From a virus: a DNA stretch of 22,315 nucleotides. How positions within the stretch are numbered: position 1 is the stretch's first letter; every line of letters starts with the position of its first letter. The DNA is taken from positions 1 through 22,315 of IMG/VR virus record IMGVR_UViG_3300006224_000040; one strand, given 5' to 3'. Shown one piece after another: positions 4,637-15,265 of the stretch. Below the pieces are notes generated by a model that worked only from the letters and a program-made list of their open reading frames with translations, did no database searches and was not told where the DNA came from. Both the position numbers and the translations under genes were made by a program.

Positions 4637-4687
4637 TTTTCTCCTAGTTTGTCTACTATTACTCGACTTACTATGCTCAATTATCAG

Positions 4688-4758
4688 AGCGGGTAGCGAG
4701 AATCGGACTCGCATCGTCAGCTTGGAAGGCTGTCATAATGCCATTATACCATACCCGC
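4688..4758 (-). tRNA. tRNA-Gly (UCC)
   Basis: A 71-base cloverleaf with acceptor stem GCGGGTA/TACCCGC, discriminator U and anticodon loop CTTCCAA. The CCA end is not encoded. It is the last tRNA of the array in the direction of transcription, 3 bases from tRNA-Ser(UGA). Confidence 0.93.
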
Positions 4759-4761
4759 TTA

Positions 4762-4845
4762 CGGAAGCAAGAGGAATTGAACCCCTGAGTGTGATTAGCA
4801 CCAACTGTTTTCAAGACAGCGCCCTCGACCAACCGGACTACTTCC
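4762..4845 (-). tRNA. tRNA-Ser (UGA)
   Basis: An 84-base class II tRNA with a long variable arm, as expected for serine. The acceptor stem begins GGAAG and ends CTTCC with discriminator G. The anticodon stem-loop CTGTCTTGAAAACAG reads UGA. CCA is not encoded. It reads UCA-type serine codons, common in AT-rich genomes. Confidence 0.92.
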
Positions 4846-4854
4846 ATAACTTAC

Positions 4855-4950
4855 TTATTTTCTTCTTAAATTATATAACCATTCGGCTTTCCAAAAGAAT
4901 ATTCCAAGAACTATCATTACAATTATTGTAGTTATTAACCAATCTTCCAT
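4855..4950 (-). CDS. Membrane microprotein between tRNAs
   Basis: A 31-residue frame has an excellent GGAGG site seven bases before its ATG. Residues 4-21 (WLITTIIVMIVLGIFFWK) form one transmembrane helix, followed by a basic end (NLRRK). It sits between tRNA-Arg and tRNA-Ser(UGA), nine bases before the latter, so it is probably transcribed with the array. Function unknown. The strong start signal and clean membrane pattern make it likely real despite its size. Confidence 0.65.
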   Translation of the reverse strand: MEDWLITTIIVMIVLGIFFWKAEWLYNLRRK

Positions 4951-4963
4951 AGTAACCTCCTTA

Positions 4964-5040
4964 GACCCGATAATGGGATTCGAACCCATATTATTCCCGG
5001 TTCGTAGCCGAGTACCATAGTCCATTAGGCGATATCGGGT
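4964..5040 (-). tRNA. tRNA-Arg (ACG)
   Basis: Acceptor stem ACCCGAT/ATCGGGT, T arm GGGTTCGAATCCC and anticodon loop CTACGAA reading ACG. A34 would need deamination to inosine by host TadA to read CGN codons. The discriminator is C, unusual. The first 16 bases of this tRNA also carry the end of the HNH endonuclease gene, including its stop codon. Confidence 0.9.
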
Positions 5041-5405
5041 AATTCTGTTATACCTTCTTCTACTTCTCTATGACAATTCATACATAATAGAACACATTTT
5101 TTAACTTCTTTTTCCATATCTTTCCAACTAAGTGACCTTTCATCAGATATTGTTATACTTTTTGTACTAGGGTCTACATGATGAAAAGAAAGTGCGCCTT
5201 GATATTTATCGTAGCCACAAATAATGCATTTTCCTCCCAACATTTGTACGGCTCTAGCCTTATACTTTCTTCTTAATTCTCCCCTTTTTTCTTTTTCTCT
5301 TCTCTGGTCCATACAAGATGGGCAATAATCTCTGTTTGCATTTTCATCTAAATAAAACCAAGTTCTTCCACACTTTCTACACACCAATCTCTCAGCAGAC
5401 TTCAT
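5025..5405 (-). CDS. HNH endonuclease in tRNA array
   Basis: A 126-residue HNH-family nuclease. Residues 9-31 hold a zinc ribbon (CRKCG ... CPSC). The centre is basic (RGELRRKYKARAVQML), and the HNH core follows: CIICGYDKYQGALSFHHVD with paired histidines, then LLCMNCHREVEEG, the C-x2-C knuckle and final histidine. Such small HNH proteins often act as homing endonucleases and are frequent near phage tRNA genes. AAGGAAAGCAT precedes the ATG. Its last codons lie inside tRNA-Arg, so the RNA for both is shared. It may have entered the array as a mobile element, but no intron boundaries are seen. Confidence 0.88.
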   Translation of the reverse strand: MKSAERLVCRKCGRTWFYLDENANRDYCPSCMDQRREKEKRGELRRKYKARAVQMLGGKCIICGYDKYQGALSFHHVDPSTKSITISDERSLSWKDMEKEVKKCVLLCMNCHREVEEGITELPDIA

Positions 5406-5433
5406 ATGCTTTCCTTATTATAGTTTACTTATA

Positions 5434-5519
5434 CGGAGAGTAGTGGATTTGAACCACTGTGACTTTTACATCGTCTCGGTTTAGCAAACCGGCCCATTAC
5501 CTGACTCTGGCAACTCTCC
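5434..5519 (-). tRNA. tRNA-Ser (GCU)
   Basis: An 86-base class II tRNA with acceptor GGAGAGT/ACTCTCC, discriminator G and anticodon stem-loop CGGTTTGCTAAACCG reading GCU. It has a long variable arm as expected for serine and a T arm GTGGTTCAAATCCAC. It lies 3 bases upstream of the position where tRNA-Asn begins to be encoded on the same strand. Confidence 0.92.
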
Positions 5520-5522
5520 TTA

Positions 5523-5611
5523 CTCCAGCGGCAAGATTCGAACTTGCGAGGCGATTCAATCCTCCTACTTTCGGTTAACAGCCGAATGCCTTTCCTCTCG
5601 GCCACACTGGA
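5523..5611 (-). tRNA. tRNA with Asn anticodon (GUU) and long variable arm
   Basis: An 89-base tRNA with acceptor TCCAGTG/CGCTGGA, discriminator G and anticodon stem-loop TTCGGCTGTTAACCGAA reading GUU. Between the anticodon stem and the T arm (GCAAGTTCGAATCTTGC) lie 22 bases, which can form a GAGG/CCTC stem. That is a class II variable arm, not the 4-5 bases normal for tRNA-Asn. The D arm GCCGAGAGGAAAGGC also resembles serine-type tRNAs. U1-A72 and G73 do fit bacterial tRNA-Asn. Which amino acid it carries is therefore open. Confidence 0.85.
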
Positions 5612-5618
5612 CTATATA

Positions 5619-5689
5619 CTGAAGAACCAAGATTCGGACTTGGACCGACAGATTCAAAGTCTGTTATGCTACCATTACACCATTCTTCA
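5619..5689 (-). tRNA. tRNA-Gln (UUG)
   Basis: A 71-base cloverleaf with acceptor TGAAGAA/TTCTTCA, discriminator G and anticodon loop TTTGAAT reading UUG. The T arm has TCCGAAT rather than TTCGAAT, a small deviation. CCA is not encoded. Confidence 0.9.
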
Positions 5690-5693
5690 ATAG

Positions 5694-5764
5694 TGGGCAA
5701 TAAAGGATTCGAACCTTTAACTCAGGTATGTAACACCTACGCTTTACCCTTAAACTAATCGCCC
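5694..5764 (-). tRNA. tRNA-Val (UAC)
   Basis: A 71-base cloverleaf with acceptor GGGCGAT/ATTGCCC, discriminator A, anticodon loop GTTACAT reading UAC, and T arm AAAGGTTCGAATCCTTT. It starts three bases after a hairpin element at 5768-5803. Confidence 0.92.
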
Positions 5765-5767
5765 AAA

Positions 5768-5803
5768 TGTAGGTTCGATTTTTTATACAAGAACAAGCCT
5801 ACA
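5768..5803 (-). ncRNA. Compact stem-loop element in tRNA array (element G)
   Basis: A 36-base segment closed by TGTAGG/CCTACA, with an AT-rich interior, lies three bases from tRNA-Val and 13 from tRNA-Pro. It is the weakest of the seven non-tRNA elements, since the inner part shows little pairing. It could be a processing hairpin. Confidence 0.35.
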
Positions 5804-5816
5804 AGCAAACTCTAGG

Positions 5817-5894
5817 TCAGGGTGGTAGGATTTGAACCTACGTTATTCCTGGCTCCAGACCAGGGGCCATTATACCAGACTAGGCGACACCCTG
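5817..5894 (-). tRNA. tRNA-Pro (UGG)
   Basis: A 78-base cloverleaf with acceptor CAGGGTG/CACCCTG (C1-G72 as usual for bacterial tRNA-Pro), discriminator A, anticodon stem-loop CCTGGTCTGGAGCCAGG reading UGG, and T arm GTAGGTTCAAATCCTAC. Confidence 0.93.
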
Positions 5895-5898
5895 TTAA

Positions 5899-5952
5899 AG
5901 TAGAGAGCCAAGAATACCCTTTTTGCTAAGAGCCTTATGATAACTCTCTACT
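5899..5952 (-). ncRNA. Structured element in tRNA array (element A)
   Basis: A 54-base segment is closed by a perfect 9-bp terminal stem, AGTAGAGAG at one end and CTCTCTACT at the other. It lies four bases from tRNA-Pro and three from tRNA-Phe, the same spacing as between true tRNAs here. It has no T arm or recognisable anticodon arm. This may be a small stable RNA released by tRNA-type processing, a degenerate tRNA, or a processing signal. Confidence 0.5.
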
Positions 5953-5955
5953 AAG

Positions 5956-6027
5956 TGGACTGAATTCGCATCGAACGAATATCTCTGGTACTTCACACCA
6001 ACGCTCTGCCTATTGAGCTATCAATCC
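5956..6027 (-). tRNA. tRNA-Phe (GAA)
   Basis: A 72-base cloverleaf with acceptor GGATTGA/TCAGTCC, discriminator A, D arm TAGCTCAATAGGCAGAGC and anticodon loop GTGAAGT reading GAA. The T loop reads TTCGATG, and the T stem is ATTCG/CGAAT. Confidence 0.9.
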
Positions 6028-6034
6028 AAATGGC

Positions 6035-6127
6035 GAGGGAATAGGAGCTTATTATTGAAATTAATGCGCTTTTCAATAAGGCTCCATTTAGTCTTACGAC
6101 TCGGACTTTTCATGGTTTTAATCCCTC
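6035..6127 (-). ncRNA. Two-armed structured RNA candidate (element B)
   Basis: A 93-base segment closed by GAGGGA/TCCCTC. Inside are two arms. One has CCAT/ATGG enclosing AGTC/GACT. The other is strong: GGAGC/GCTCC followed by TTATTGAAA/TTTCAATAA with a short loop. The result is a three-way junction. It is seven bases from tRNA-Phe. No T arm is present and it is not a tRNA. It resembles no RNA family I know, and fits a small stable RNA of unknown function in the array. Confidence 0.55.
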
Positions 6128-6146
6128 AAGCCCAACCACTATATTA

Positions 6147-6184
6147 GCAGATATGATAGACCAGCGCCATCTACTTCTATCCGC
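6147..6184 (-). ncRNA. Mini stem-loop RNA candidate (element C)
   Basis: A 38-base segment with a 7-bp terminal stem GCGGATA/TATCTGC (one G-U), the same length as a tRNA acceptor stem. An inner TAGA/TCTA hairpin carries a 9-base loop. It lies between element B and tRNA-Leu(UAG), 12 bases from the latter. It looks like an acceptor stem capped by a single arm. Function unknown. Confidence 0.45.
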
Positions 6185-6196
6185 GAATAAGCACAG

Positions 6197-6271
6197 TAGG
6201 CAGGGGGGGAATCGAACCCCCAAAACCTAGCTTCTAAAGCTAGTATGTATGCCTAGTTCCATCACCCGCCC
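6197..6271 (-). tRNA. tRNA-Leu (UAG) with short variable loop
   Basis: A 75-base tRNA with acceptor GGGCGGG/CCTGCCT (ending in a G1-U72 wobble), discriminator A, anticodon stem-loop CTAGCTTTAGAAGCTAG and T arm GGGGGTTCGATTCCCCC. Only GTTTT separates the anticodon and T stems, so it is class I, whereas bacterial tRNA-Leu is class II. The D arm (ATG...CAT with a large loop) resembles that of normal tRNA-Leu. It shares a body plan with its neighbour tRNA-Leu(CAA). Confidence 0.87.
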
Positions 6272-6274
6272 ATA

Positions 6275-6347
6275 TACCCAAGGGTGGAGTCGAACCACCA
6301 AAACCTAGTTTTTGAAACTAGTATGTATGCCATTCCATCACTCGGGC
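6275..6347 (-). tRNA. tRNA-Leu (CAA) with short variable loop
   Basis: A 73-base tRNA with acceptor GCCCGAG/CTTGGGT (again G1-U72), discriminator A, anticodon stem-loop CTAGTTTCAAAAACTAG and T arm GGTGGTTCGACTCCACC. The variable loop is GTTTT, identical to that of tRNA-Leu(UAG). The segment GGCATACATACTAG is shared too, so the pair probably arose by duplication. They are separated by only three bases. Confidence 0.87.
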
Positions 6348-6351
6348 TTAA

Positions 6352-6425
6352 TGTCGCATAGGGGAGTCGAACCCACTATTAACAGGTTGAAAGCCTGTTG
6401 ACTTAATCCGTTAGTCGAATGCGAC
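6352..6425 (-). tRNA. tRNA-Glu (UUC)
   Basis: A 74-base cloverleaf with acceptor GTCGCAT/ATGCGAC, discriminator A, D arm GACTAACGGATTAAGTC and anticodon stem-loop ACAGGCTTTCAACCTGT reading UUC. The T stem has one mismatch around TTCGACT. It lies four bases from tRNA-Leu(CAA). Confidence 0.9.
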
Positions 6426-6430
6426 TTATA

Positions 6431-6480
6431 AGAGAAATAGCTACTCCCGTTATTGATAACGATGCCTTCACTATTTCTCT
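6431..6480 (-). ncRNA. Structured element in tRNA array (element D)
   Basis: A 50-base segment has a perfect 10-bp terminal stem, AGAGAAATAG/CTATTTCTCT, and an inner 6-bp hairpin CGTTAT-CA-ATAACG. It lies two bases from tRNA-Ala and five from tRNA-Glu. It lacks tRNA landmarks. Its perfect pairing and tRNA-like spacing suggest a small stable RNA or a processing structure. Confidence 0.5.
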
Positions 6481-6482
6481 AG

Positions 6483-6555
6483 TGGACCTGGAGGGATTTG
6501 AACCCTCATTACTGCCGTGCAAAGGCAGAGTAATCCCAGGTTATACTACAAGCCC
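6483..6555 (-). tRNA. tRNA-Ala (UGC)
   Basis: A 73-base cloverleaf with acceptor GGGCTTG/CAGGTCC, which includes the G3-U70 pair that identifies alanine tRNAs, and discriminator A. The anticodon stem-loop is CTGCCTTTGCACGGCAG and the T arm is GAGGGTTCAAATCCCTC. Confidence 0.93.
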
Positions 6556-6579
6556 CTATATTTAATTTTCAAAGTTCAG

Positions 6580-6651
6580 AGACACCGGGGGGATTCGAAC
6601 CCACCTTCAATCGTTTTGCAGACGATTTGGCTATCCAAAACCAACGGTGCC
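6580..6651 (-). tRNA. tRNA-Cys (GCA)
   Basis: A 72-base cloverleaf with acceptor GGCACCG/CGGTGTC, discriminator U as required for cysteine tRNAs, and anticodon stem-loop ATCGTCTGCAAAACGAT. The T loop TTCGAAT is standard and the T stem has one mismatch. Confidence 0.92.
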
Positions 6652-6658
6652 TATGCTA

Positions 6659-6739
6659 TTATCGACGGTAATATCCGAAACCACCACCAAAGAAAATTAT
6701 AACCAACACAATAATTAAAATTATAAGCCATAAATCCAT
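6659..6739 (-). CDS. Hydrophobic microprotein between tRNAs
   Basis: A 26-residue frame with a perfect AAAGGAGG site ten bases before its ATG. MDLWLIILIIVLVIIFFGGG is a single transmembrane helix ending in a triglycine, followed by FGYYRR. It lies between tRNA-Asp and tRNA-Cys, ending seven bases before the latter. It is one of three membrane microproteins inside the array. Function unknown. Confidence 0.65.
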   Translation of the reverse strand: MDLWLIILIIVLVIIFFGGGFGYYRR

Positions 6740-6767
6740 TTTATGCCCTCCTTTCTTTTTTTGTTAG

Positions 6768-6838
6768 CCACGCATAGGGGAGTTAAACCCCTGACTTCTG
6801 GTAGACGGCCAGATATGTTATCGCTACACCAATGCGCG
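6768..6838 (-). tRNA. tRNA-Asp (GUC), atypical loops
   Basis: A 71-base cloverleaf with acceptor CGCGCAT/ATGCGTG, discriminator G as in bacterial tRNA-Asp, and anticodon stem-loop TCTGGCCGTCTACCAGA reading GUC. Position 33 is C instead of the near-universal U, and the T loop is TTTAACT instead of TTCRANT. These changes raise the possibility of decay or of a non-standard role. Confidence 0.8.
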
Positions 6839-7033
6839 TTAATCTTGTTTTAATTCAAAATACATATTTACTCCCACTACTATTATAGCTATCAATCCAA
6901 TTGCAAGAAAAGTTATTCCTCCAATAAGTAAATTATGGTTTACTAATCTGTCAACTCCAAAAGCAAGTGTACCTGCTGCCGTAATTAATGGTAATATATG
7001 AGCATTAATAATATGAAGTCTATTTTTTTCTAT
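6839..7033 (-). CDS. Two-helix membrane protein with apparent ATA start
   Basis: An open frame of 64 codons ends with a TAA directly abutting the 5' end of tRNA-Asp. It encodes two hydrophobic segments, AHILPLITAAGTLAFGV and LLIGGITFLAIGLIAIIVVG, then a NMYFELKQD tail. A strong AAAGGAGG lies upstream, but the codon at the right spacing is ATA (7031-7033), with ATT just before it. No ATG, GTG or TTG exists near the site. Rare ATA or ATT starts are known in bacteria. Alternatively the gene has lost its start. The intact frame and clear membrane pattern support expression. Confidence 0.55.
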   Translation of the reverse strand: MEKNRLHIINAHILPLITAAGTLAFGVDRLVNHNLLIGGITFLAIGLIAIIVVGVNMYFELKQD

Positions 7034-7052
7034 AATATCCTCCTTTCTATCA

Positions 7053-7124
7053 AGCCACCACTAGGACTTGAACCCAGTACTGAGGTTTACAAAACCCCTG
7101 CTTTACCCGGTAAGCTATGGCGGC
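7053..7124 (-). tRNA. tRNA-Thr (UGU)
   Basis: A 72-base cloverleaf with acceptor GCCGCCA/TGGTGGC, discriminator U, anticodon loop TTTGTAA reading UGU, and T arm CTGGGTTCAAGTCCTAG. It lies six bases from structured element E. Confidence 0.92.
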
Positions 7125-7130
7125 AAATAT

Positions 7131-7202
7131 GGTAGGTACATCGTGAGTTTTTCCCCTCTGCCAAGGTTAAAACTGCACGTTATGTGTTCTCGCACACCTA
7201 CC
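7131..7202 (-). ncRNA. tRNA-sized structured RNA candidate (element E)
   Basis: Exactly 72 bases long and closed by a perfect 7-bp stem GGTAGGT/ACCTACC followed by an A, like a tRNA acceptor and discriminator. It has no T arm, GTTCRA loop or plausible anticodon arm. The interior pairs as CGTG/CACG continuing into GTTTT/AAAAC. It sits between tRNA-Thr and element F. It could be a strongly diverged tRNA or a tRNA-mimic RNA using tRNA processing. Confidence 0.5.
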
Positions 7203-7209
7203 AAATGCG

Positions 7210-7243
7210 CTCTTGAATGTAGTCTTGGCAGCTACCACAAGAG
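7210..7243 (-). ncRNA. Mini stem-loop element (element F)
   Basis: A 34-base segment with terminal stem CTCTTG/CAAGAG and an inner GTAG/CTAC hairpin. It is four bases from tRNA-Met and seven from element E, thus first of the non-tRNA elements in transcription order. Function unknown. Confidence 0.4.
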
Positions 7244-7247
7244 AGAT

Positions 7248-7318
7248 AGCGGAGTATGGGAATCGGACCCATTTCGTAGGCTTATGAAACCTCTGAGATA
7301 ACCATACCTCCCACCCGC
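7248..7318 (-). tRNA. tRNA-Met (CAU), possibly degenerate
   Basis: A 71-base tRNA-like sequence with anticodon loop TTCATAA, a D arm closed by GAG/CTC and a T arm ATGGGTCCGATTCCCAT. The acceptor pairs only for its first five positions (GCGGG against TCCGC). The anticodon stem is short and the T loop begins TCC. It is the first tRNA transcribed. It may serve as Met, or as Ile2 if C34 were modified, or be a decaying gene. Confidence 0.6.
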
Positions 7319-11917: not shown

Positions 11918-14900
11918 TTACCAGTTTGCTTTTCCTATAAGTTCTTTCCAAACGGCGCTTCCTTTTAAATCTTTCCAGGTAGCTTTCCCCGTCAATTCTT
12001 CCCATTCTGCGCTTAAAGTAAGGTCTTTCCATATTGCCTTTCCATCTAAGCTTTTCCATTCTGCGGTTCCAGTTAATCCAGCTACATCAAATCTAATTAT
12101 ACCATCTATAGTAACTGTAGTTTGAGTTCTTACTGAGATATATCCATCAATGGTGAATGTTTTAGAAGTAATTATTTCAATATAACCATCAACAGTGAAT
12201 GTCTCATATCTTCTATCGACTATAATACCATCTAAGTCAAGGGTATGTTCTACTATTTGCTTGATTATACCATCAAGAGTTATGTCCTTTGTAAGAGTCT
12301 CTTTTACATAACCATCTATAGTGAATGTTTGAGTGTTATAGACCTCAATTATACCGTCGATGGTAAAGGTCTTAGTAAGTATCTCTTTTACAACACCATC
12401 TATAGTTATTTGCTCAGTTAAAGTTTCCTTAACAAAACCATCAATAGTAATTTGTTCTTGATTACGAGTAGCAACAATACCGTCTATAGTAACAATCTGT
12501 GTTAAGACTTCCTTGATGATACCATCTAAAGTAATATCTTGAGTTTTTCTCTCAGCAATAAATCCGTCTAGTGAGAAATCTTCTATATTTGAAGCCTTAA
12601 CAATACCATCAATTGTAAATGATTTAGTAGGAATCTCTTTGATAAGACCATCAATTGTGAAGGTTTTAGTAAGAACTTCCTTTATAATACCATCTAAGGT
12701 TATTGTCTCAGTTAGTCTATCTACTATAATTCCATCAATGGTAAATATTTGAGTATCATGCACAAGAACAATACCATCAATAGTGAAGAACTTAATCCCA
12801 GCAGATTCAATTAAACCATCAATAGTAAAGGTCTTAGTACTTTGAACAAGGATAATACCATCTATGGTTACAGCTTTAGTCTTAATTTCTTTGATAATAC
12901 CGTCTAAAGTAATTTGTTCAGTTGTTCTTTCAGCTATAAAGCCATCAAGAGTAATCTGTTCAGTTTCAATTGTCTTGACAATACCATCTATGGTGAACTG
13001 CTCAATTGTTCTTTCAGCCACATAGCCGTCTAGAGTTACAGTCTTAGTTTTTATCTCTTTGACAATACCATCTATTGTAACTTGTGTAGATTTACGTTCA
13101 GCAATAGAACCATCTATAGTGACTGTTTCAGTTTCAACTGCCTTTACTATACCATCTATAGAGAAAGTCTCAGTAGTTCTCTCAGCAACATATCCATCAA
13201 GAGTAAATTCCTCAGTATTAACTTCTTTGATAATACCATCTAGTGTAATTTCTTCAGTAAAGGTATCTCTAATATATCCATCTAGAGTAAACTGTTCAAC
13301 TGTTCTTTCCGCAATATAACCATCTAGTGTGAAAGTTTTAGTGCTAAGTTCTTTTATAACACCATCAAGGGTAAACTCTTCAGTTTTTCGTTCTGCAATA
13401 TATCCATCAAGAGTGACTGTCTCTGTTTCTCTAGAAACGACTATTCCATCTATTGTGAATGTTTTAGTCTCTACACAGAGAACTATCCCGTCAATAGAGA
13501 AGTTAAGAGAGAACGCTGCTTCAATAATACCATCTAAGGTAAAGTCTTTTGTTAAAGTATCACGAACATAACCATCTATAGTTACTGTCTTGGTTAGAAC
13601 CTCTTTAACTATACCGTCAAGTGTAATAGTTTCTGTCTCTACGCTTTTTACTATACCATCTATTGTGAAAGTCTTGGTGTTAACTTCTTTAACTATACCA
13701 TCAATCGTAACTTGTTCAGTTTCAACAGACTTTATAATACCGTCTATGGTAACTGTCTTTGTTAGAATTTCTTTAACGATGGCATCAATGGTGAAAGTTT
13801 CTGTTTCTCTGGAAGCCACATAACCATCAATGGTAAAATCTTTAGTAAGAGTTTCTACACCAAGTTCAATAATACCATCTATAGTAAATTGTTCAGTTTT
13901 ACGTTCAGCTACATAACCATCAACGGTAACAGTCTCAATATTACGGTCTACTATGTAACCATCAATAGTAAATGTTTTTTCAACGACTAATTTAATACCA
14001 AGTAGTTCCATTTCACCAATAGCGGCAAAATCACTACCATTTATTGCACTAATCCAAAGAGAATAATACTGATATGTTGCAGGAGAGGCTAGAGTAAATG
14101 TTTTTTTAACGCCACCTGGAGTAGATGCCCAATCAGTTATATCAGTTTGAGTATCAAGTGAATCCCAAGTTTCTCCGTCTTCAGAACCTTTAAATTCCCA
14201 AGTTTTAAGTGCGCCAATATAATTTGCATCATCACGATTTCGTGTGGTAATAGTATAACTATAGATTGTTTGAGGGTACTCAAAATTATACCCAAAATAC
14301 GCTGGCATTCCAGCGCCATCACTAATCCAAGCATCCTCAAAAACAGTAGAATTATTGAAAGCTAAATAAGCAGCATACCACGCACCATCAGACCAAGCTT
14401 CTCCACTTGGAGCAGTATTAGAAGTCATAGTAGGAGTTAAATCAAATAGTGCTACATACTCAAAAGGAACTTCATTACTAGCAACTGAGAAAGAAGATAC
14501 TACAAACAAAGTTAATTCTTCTGCACCAGAAGGTGCGGCAGGAATTGTACAAGTTATTGTGTTATCATCAACAACAACTACATCAGCAGCACCAATCGGC
14601 CCAGTACCAAAGTCAAACGTAACATCAGTAGCGTCTGTAAACCCTGCTCCATAAATAGTTAGGGTATCACCACCAGCTAGAGGACTTTGAGATTGAGAAA
14701 GAGAATTGATACCAAAGATATTTCCATCTATGGTAAATGTCTTAGTTTTTACTTCTAAAATTATACCGTCAATAGTAAAAGCTTCAGGAGTACCAATATG
14801 TACTACTACTTCGTTAGAATATTCTGAGTAATGAACTGTATCTTCAAATGTAGTACTTCTTCTAGCGCGGTAAGTATAGGTATGACCAGGAAGTAAATCA

Positions 14901-15265
14901 CCTTCATTTTCATCTATCCATTGAGAAAGCGGAGTAGCACCAACTCCCTCCCAAGGTCCAAGATAAATTTCTTCAAAGGTAGGAGTAGCGTCTTCAGAAT
15001 CCTTACGTTCAATACGAATTTCATCAGCATAGATAATACCATCAATGGTAAATGTCTCAGTTAGAACTGCCTTGACAATACCATCAATGGTAAAAGTTTT
15101 ATCTCTAGTAGTGAAATCGGCATAATGCGCTCCACCAGGAAACACGCCAGATTGAATATAGCCAATATCTAGCTCATCAACAATACCTGTTAAATCTTTT
15201 CTGTGATAAGCACCTGTTAGTATATAGGCTGTATCCAGACCTTTGCTGTCTGCTGGCGTAGCCAT
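11918..15265 (-). CDS. Giant tail-fibre-like protein with about 45 TIDG repeats
   Basis: An 1115-residue protein. Residues 1-60 are a unique start followed by two repeats. Residues about 83-156 look like a fibronectin type III domain (GHTYTYRARRSTTFEDTVHY). About 186-271 is an IPT/TIG domain (GDTLTIYGAGFTDATDVTF). About 272-427 is an F5/8 type C, discoidin-like domain (WEFKGSEDGETWDSLDTQ), often sugar-binding. About 430-1060 holds roughly 45 tandem 14-residue repeats of consensus T-hydrophobic-DG-hydrophobic2 ... T-x2-hydrophobic. The last 53 residues are a second repeat with tryptophan every nine residues. It is probably a long surface fibre or adhesin. The start has only a weak ribosome site. 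Confidence 0.85.
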   Translation of the reverse strand: MATPADSKGLDTAYILTGAYHRKDLTGIVDELDIGYIQSGVFPGGAHYADFTTRDKTFTIDGIVKAVLTETFTIDGIIYADEIRIERKDSEDATPTFEEIYLGPWEGVGATPLSQWIDENEGDLLPGHTYTYRARRSTTFEDTVHYSEYSNEVVVHIGTPEAFTIDGIILEVKTKTFTIDGNIFGINSLSQSQSPLAGGDTLTIYGAGFTDATDVTFDFGTGPIGAADVVVVDDNTITCTIPAAPSGAEELTLFVVSSFSVASNEVPFEYVALFDLTPTMTSNTAPSGEAWSDGAWYAAYLAFNNSTVFEDAWISDGAGMPAYFGYNFEYPQTIYSYTITTRNRDDANYIGALKTWEFKGSEDGETWDSLDTQTDITDWASTPGGVKKTFTLASPATYQYYSLWISAINGSDFAAIGEMELLGIKLVVEKTFTIDGYIVDRNIETVTVDGYVAERKTEQFTIDGIIELGVETLTKDFTIDGYVASRETETFTIDAIVKEILTKTVTIDGIIKSVETEQVTIDGIVKEVNTKTFTIDGIVKSVETETITLDGIVKEVLTKTVTIDGYVRDTLTKDFTLDGIIEAAFSLNFSIDGIVLCVETKTFTIDGIVVSRETETVTLDGYIAERKTEEFTLDGVIKELSTKTFTLDGYIAERTVEQFTLDGYIRDTFTEEITLDGIIKEVNTEEFTLDGYVAERTTETFSIDGIVKAVETETVTIDGSIAERKSTQVTIDGIVKEIKTKTVTLDGYVAERTIEQFTIDGIVKTIETEQITLDGFIAERTTEQITLDGIIKEIKTKAVTIDGIILVQSTKTFTIDGLIESAGIKFFTIDGIVLVHDTQIFTIDGIIVDRLTETITLDGIIKEVLTKTFTIDGLIKEIPTKSFTIDGIVKASNIEDFSLDGFIAERKTQDITLDGIIKEVLTQIVTIDGIVATRNQEQITIDGFVKETLTEQITIDGVVKEILTKTFTIDGIIEVYNTQTFTIDGYVKETLTKDITLDGIIKQIVEHTLDLDGIIVDRRYETFTVDGYIEIITSKTFTIDGYISVRTQTTVTIDGIIRFDVAGLTGTAEWKSLDGKAIWKDLTLSAEWEELTGKATWKDLKGSAVWKELIGKANW
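11921..12079 (-). repeat. 27-bp (9-residue) tryptophan repeat
   Basis: The C-terminal end of the giant fibre has six tryptophans exactly nine residues apart (AEWKSLDGKAIWKDL, AEWEELTGKATWKDL, then AVWKELIGKANW). The unit is small residue-W-K/E-x-L-x-G-K/S-A-x. It differs from the 14-residue repeat before it and may be the fibre tip, a trimerisation element or a wall-binding segment. Confidence 0.8.
12085..13975 (-). repeat. 42-bp (14-residue) tandem repeats in fibre gene
   Basis: About 45 consecutive units encode variants of TIDGIVKEVLTKTF. TIDG or TLDG starts nearly every unit. Alternating types include GYIAER and GIVKEV. Period is almost perfectly 14 residues, with one unit of 17 (TIDGIIELGVETLTKDF). 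Four further isolated units occur near 15020-15110 and 14730-14790. Codon choice varies between units, so the array is old rather than freshly expanded. The pattern suggests two short beta strands per unit, as in a beta-solenoid. Confidence 0.9.

Follow-up and report, generated by a model that had tools for sequence, protein, structure and literature searches.

Closed non-tRNA structures in the gaps of a viral tRNA array, and a possible class of small RNAs carried by phage tRNA arrays

Introduction

Between some of the tRNA genes of the virus analysed here lie segments that can fold back on themselves and close at their ends, and the question is whether these are RNAs in their own right, parts of the tRNA-processing machinery or accidents of composition. 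The window (the whole stretch of DNA analysed, 22,315 bases) is one complete virus record from IMG/VR, encoding an M15-type endolysin, a papain-like protease with an SLH domain, a DUF6899 protein and a ThyX whose relatives are found at 41-47% identity. An earlier note, made from the sequence alone, had counted seven closed segments in the array, most of them 2-7 nt from the nearest tRNA, and had likened them to the two stable RNAs made from the tRNA cluster of phage T4. We examined the folding of these segments against shuffled controls, searched for their relatives, and surveyed the spacers of other viral tRNA arrays.

Results

The array and the segments between its tRNAs

The array and its contents are as follows.

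4687-7318, minus strand: tRNA array, 16 tRNAs by ARAGORN
5768-5803, minus strand: E1, a hairpin closed by 6 bp in the tRNA-Pro/tRNA-Val gap, at chance
5899-5952, minus strand: E2, a 12-bp closing stem, a 7/5 internal loop and a 6-bp inner hairpin, in the tRNA-Phe/tRNA-Pro gap
6035-6127, minus strand: E3, a 6-bp closing stem with a small and a long hairpin, in the tRNA-Leu/tRNA-Phe gap
6147-6184, minus strand: E4, a candidate H-type pseudoknot, at chance
6431-6480, minus strand: E5, a perfect 10-bp closing stem (11 bp with a G-U pair), a 7/5 internal loop and an inner hairpin, in the tRNA-Ala/tRNA-Glu gap
7131-7202, minus strand: E6, a three-way junction with an 8-bp closing stem, adjoining tRNA-Thr
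7158-7165, minus strand: E6 loop CUUGGCAG, putative kissing partner
7210-7243, minus strand: E7, a hairpin
7224-7231, minus strand: E7 loop CUGCCAAG, putative kissing partner
7248-7318, minus strand: weak tRNA-Met-like gene (CAU) flanking E7, 28.2 bits against the Rfam cut-off of 29
5025-5405: HNH-like gene in an array spacer
4848-4963, 6652-6766 and probably 6839-7052: short hydrophobic ORFs after Shine-Dalgarno-like sequences, read by eye

The CCA end is encoded in none of the 16 ARAGORN tRNAs. Most spacers of the array are 2-5 nt long and have no hairpin, and four contain ORFs (the HNH-like gene and the three short hydrophobic frames, one of them probable). One tRNA, at 5523-5611 on the minus strand, combines a long Ser-type variable arm with the anticodon GUU (Asn); were SerRS to charge it, Asn codons would be misread as Ser. 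Elsewhere in the window, 11918-15265 on the minus strand encodes a protein of 1,115 amino acids that consists mostly of degenerate TFTIDGIV-type repeats.

We considered whether the segments could be intrinsic terminators, which consist of a GC-rich hairpin with a run of U after it on the transcribed strand. This was rejected, since the array has no such site on its minus strand; the two terminator-like sites lie within tRNAs, on the plus strand.

At least three units fold beyond chance

Each spacer was folded and compared with 500 dinucleotide shuffles, and its best single helix was compared with 300 shuffles. E5 is the strongest element (spacer z -4.8, equalled by 0 of 500 shuffles; best helix 11 bp, 0 of 300), followed by E2 (spacer z -4.4, 0 of 500; best helix 12 bp, p 0.007). 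E6 alone gives z -4.4, with a best helix of 11 bp (from 7203/7130, wobble included) at p 0.017, and E7 alone is not significant. Taken together, the E6+E7 spacer reaches z -3.35 (p 0.002, 500 shuffles). The loops of the two, CUGCCAAG in E7 and CUUGGCAG in E6, can pair perfectly along 8 nt (p 5e-5; predicted duplex -14.5 kcal/mol), which makes a single unit the better description of E6 and E7; they probably form one RNA of about 113 nt. The best-helix test was significant for E2, E5 and E6 only. For E2, E5 and E6+E7 the fold of the sense strand is stronger than that of the antisense strand, as would be predicted for RNA, and the three ORF-bearing spacers used as controls (z +1.1, -0.3 and -0.9) have no such structure. 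Thus, at least three of the stem-loops in the array gaps, E2, E5 and E6+E7, are clearly real non-tRNA structures.

Support for the structure of E3 is moderate (z -3.5 for E3 alone; z -2.4, p 0.02 over 500 shuffles for the E3+E4 spacer). In E4, GAUAGA/UCUAUC crosses GUAGAU/AUCUGC, an arrangement that 16% of shuffles also achieve (p 0.16), and the E1 spacer gives z -0.8 (p 0.19, 500 dinucleotide shuffles); the E1 hairpin and the E4 pseudoknot were therefore rejected. A 9-nt complementarity between E2 and E3 was dropped as well, since by our estimate these spacers should contain about 0.4 matches of this kind.

These results narrow the original description. All seven pairings are present, on the same strand as the tRNAs, but only three units clearly beat chance, and the count of seven gives way to three or four defensible units (three strong, one moderate, two unsupported). 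The close spacing applies to most of them (2 and 4 nt for E2, 1 and 5 nt for E5, 4-5 nt for E6/E7) but not to E1 and E4, which lie 11 nt from the upstream tRNA. The statement that none has a T arm is borne out: a search for an acceptor stem with an adjacent T arm found nothing in E1 or E6 and stayed below threshold in E3, and cmscan found no tRNA in the spacers. The suggested Rfam search (cmscan, at gathering and relaxed thresholds) matched the spacers to no family and gave only tRNAs in the array, every remaining hit scoring well under its cut-off.

Relatives of the array

E2, E3+E4, E5 and E6+E7 were compared with phage records at the nucleotide level, and no credible relative emerged. Used as protein anchors, ThyX, the HNH protein, the C1 peptidase and the endolysin led only to identical fragments or to distant phages lacking the array. 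The other contigs recovered are identical over the parts they cover (6,256 bases in L006, the endolysin gene in L012), and no diverged relative of the array was present among the nucleotide and protein matches.

The stem of E5, AGAGAAATAG/CTATTTCTCT, occurs twice in IMG/VR. At L259 4644-4695 a stem of this type lies in a tRNA-Phe/tRNA-Leu gap and encloses an unrelated interior, which is suggestive, as a single case, of the same logic of stem plus interior as in E5. The overall frequency of the stem is not above background, and 257 Gb of prokaryote genomes contain 56 matches to its pattern, none within 300 nt of a tRNA. L260 was dropped as a relative of E5, as its additional matching bases were also found in unrelated genome matches. 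The L259 contig, which is classed as viral, also has a tmRNA gene near its tRNA cluster (5312-5674).

Closed spacers are general among viral tRNA arrays

For a broader view, tRNA arrays were gathered from IMG/VR with two DNA patterns, and all spacers of 25-180 nt were tested. A crude structural filter removed tRNA-like spacers, and several closed spacers were set aside as tRNAs that ARAGORN had missed. An end-closing helix was found at p<=0.01 in 25 of the 153 non-tRNA spacers, where 1-2 were expected, and z was below -2.5 in 44 of the 153, in 19 of 63 contigs; the sample takes in the window itself and the Leu-probe loci, and these fractions are indicative. Because of this excess of closed spacers, the arrangement seen in the window is general among viral tRNA arrays, occurring in many unrelated viruses. 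The earlier note's observation of non-tRNA structures in the array at tRNA-like spacing is upheld, and closed stem-loops are common in other phage arrays. The maturation by tRNA enzymes that the note suggests would be compatible with where the elements lie.

Two recurring closed RNA families were seen directly after tRNA-Glu, one of about 121-124 nt (L165, L196, L204, L220) and another of about 148 nt (L162, L193, L215). A gene for RNase P RNA of the bacterial class A type lies in a tRNA-rich stretch of L054 (9376-9703, minus strand), a contig classed as viral; the gene is either phage-borne or contamination.

A covarying stem with exchangeable interiors

One group of surveyed spacers, Family A, shares a 15-bp closing stem around a highly variable interior. 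Its elements, written ATATNNAAACACATT ... AGTGTGTTTNNATAT with the stem consensus ATATNNAAACACATT/ARTGTGTTTNNATAT, are 59-109 nt long. Examples are:

L147, 3526-3598: Family A element
L161, 1611-1683: Family A element
L255, 9034-9104: Family A element

The stem pattern has at least 120 matches in IMG/VR and none in 257 Gb of prokaryote genomes. With looser criteria and tRNA 3′ ends as the anchor, 94 contigs yielded 121 elements that pair well. The elements start at the final base of the preceding tRNA, which is tRNA-Lys more often than any other (74 of 88 in the first set are flush with the tRNA end), and in many cases the next tRNA follows only 0-12 nt beyond.

Compensatory base changes, which the earlier note had expected of homologous arrays if the elements were genuine, are strong in this family of other phage arrays. 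Among 49 distinct stems, double changes occur at 11 of the 15 pairs and 95.6% of cells pair, a figure inflated by the pairing filter applied to the sets of 121 and 49 after the 3′ side had been picked by consensus rather than by pairing. This covariation was reached by 0 of 500 shuffles, and slid controls pair at 29-61%. In the unfiltered set (131 elements), 14 of the 15 positions pair at 95-98%; at the sixth pair, roughly half of the elements have A.C.

The interiors of the 121 elements fall into 80 clusters. Covariation is found within interior clusters as well, and an identical interior can be found after different tRNAs. In seven small Family A loci, Rfam models matched only tRNAs and one borderline group I intron; a larger Rfam run covers the best 150 matches, with weaker ones possible beyond these. 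A literature search returned no description of the family, which is not proof of novelty.

No Family A element is present in the window's array. The stems of the two are dissimilar, and a sequence link between them was rejected. What they have in common is a closed stem between tRNAs, with a variable interior in Family A. They differ in that the Family A stem has another sequence and begins exactly at the tRNA end, and in that its tRNAs encode CCA. E2 and E5 do have the generic form, an end-closing helix of at least 10 bp between two tRNAs. At L040 9278-9379, a stem like that of Family A surrounds what appears to be the 3′ part of a tRNA and, after it, a D-arm-like part, possibly a permuted or broken tRNA.

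Elements with anticodon-like hairpins

A second family, Family C (TAGGATNN..CAGCAA..NNATCCTG, 53-76 nt), also lies between tRNAs, in L154 (minus strand), L157, L162, L171, L190, L258 and other loci. An anticodon-like hairpin with a 5-bp stem and 7-nt loop, U33 and a purine at 37, is present in 21 of 31 elements (mean in shuffled sequences 0.55). The anticodon-like triplet is most often UUU, and the D or T arm is usually absent. Family C could possibly consist of armless tRNA-like RNAs or of anticodon decoys. Salmonella phage Felix O1 (L262) has two closed spacers of a similar kind, with the motif ACAGCAA.

Comparison with known phage RNAs

The likeness to T4 extends to position but not to anatomy. 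Like the window elements, rnaC and rnaD of T4, its stable RNAs of species 1 and 2, are non-coding and lie inside a tRNA cluster, with gaps of 6 nt (rnaC) and 1 nt (rnaD) to their neighbours. They are 119-139 nt long, however; rnaC has a T arm, which the window elements lack, and rnaD, which lacks a helix closing its ends, has a fold no stronger than those of its shuffles. No blastn match in the phage collection pointed to the T4 RNAs. The structured phage RNAs GOLLD and ROOL, whose function is unknown, are also often found near tRNA islands (PMC12286853), and GOLLD is present in one surveyed locus (L112). They are several hundred nucleotides long and have no match in the window, so that only the neighbourhood is alike.

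Discussion

The supported elements have their own closing helix, end 1-7 nt from the flanking tRNAs and contain no tRNA. We propose, with a probability of about 0.5, that E2, E5, E6+E7 and probably E3 are small structured RNAs that share a transcript with the tRNAs and leave it when the tRNAs are processed. The upstream tRNA would be cut behind its discriminator base by RNase Z, an enzyme we propose because CCA is not encoded, and the 5′ end of the following tRNA would be cut by RNase P. The two cuts would free each element as a discrete RNA of 55-125 nt, whose paired ends may guard it against exonucleases. The stem would then be a handle for maturation and stability and the interior the working part, whose most likely use would be to bind a host factor during infection, for example as an anti-defence decoy. 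Family A offers a precedent for such a division, with a closing stem held by compensatory changes and an interior swapped among many unrelated folded modules.

The main rival, which we regard as unlikely though worth serious attention, is that the stems act in cis, as sites for an RNase III-type cut or as insulators against misfolding of the neighbouring tRNAs, with interiors that have no job. An 11-12-bp stem with a 7/5 internal loop resembles the RNase III processing signals of phage mRNAs, and both E2 and E5 have a lower stem of this length, an asymmetric 7/5 internal loop and a 6-bp upper stem. A kept stem with a varying interior, as in Family A, would also fit. Jobless interiors, on the other hand, would not be expected to be structured, to covary within Family A clusters and to recur between phages, nor would a putative kissing-loop unit (E6+E7). 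Hairpins are also dispensable for processing in this array, because most of its spacers are only 2-5 nt long and have none.

We consider it improbable that the elements are degenerate or armless tRNA-like genes, either remnants of missing tRNAs or anticodon-arm decoys against defences that cut tRNAs. The anticodon-type hairpins of Family C and the T arm of rnaC show what such a reading could build on in other arrays, but the window elements have neither a T arm nor a match to the tRNA covariance model, and E1-E7 have no convincing anticodon-type hairpin. Chance hairpins in AT-rich spacers, which we hold to be a similarly poor explanation overall, would account for E1, E4 and possibly E7 alone, but not for E2, E5 and E6+E7, which reach p<=0.002. 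Self-cleaving ribozymes that trim tRNA 3′ ends are very improbable: theta ribozymes, HDV-like ribozymes of gut phages, do directly adjoin phage tRNA 3′ ends (PMC10879173), but their nested double pseudoknot and catalytic C are seen in no window element, no Rfam ribozyme family matches (cmscan with the Rfam models), and E4, the sole element with crossed helices, has by eye no room for a P3 stem and catalytic C and is at chance.

A wider proposal can also be made, which we put forward tentatively and with somewhat less than even confidence. Phage tRNA arrays may be general carriers of a new class of small RNAs with a constant closing stem and an exchangeable folded interior, placed flush between tRNAs and set free as the tRNAs mature, whose fast-changing interiors would act on targets in the host, defence nucleases for example; the window would be an independent example that has three or more of these RNAs.

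To our knowledge, the function of the two stable RNAs of the T4 tRNA cluster has remained unknown for decades. The presence of closed non-tRNA RNAs in many phage tRNA arrays turns this single oddity of T4 into a testable class, to which one covarying family belongs that occurs in about 100 contigs and is absent from the sampled prokaryote genomes. If the interiors counter host defences, tRNA arrays would carry regulatory or anti-defence RNAs besides aiding translation.
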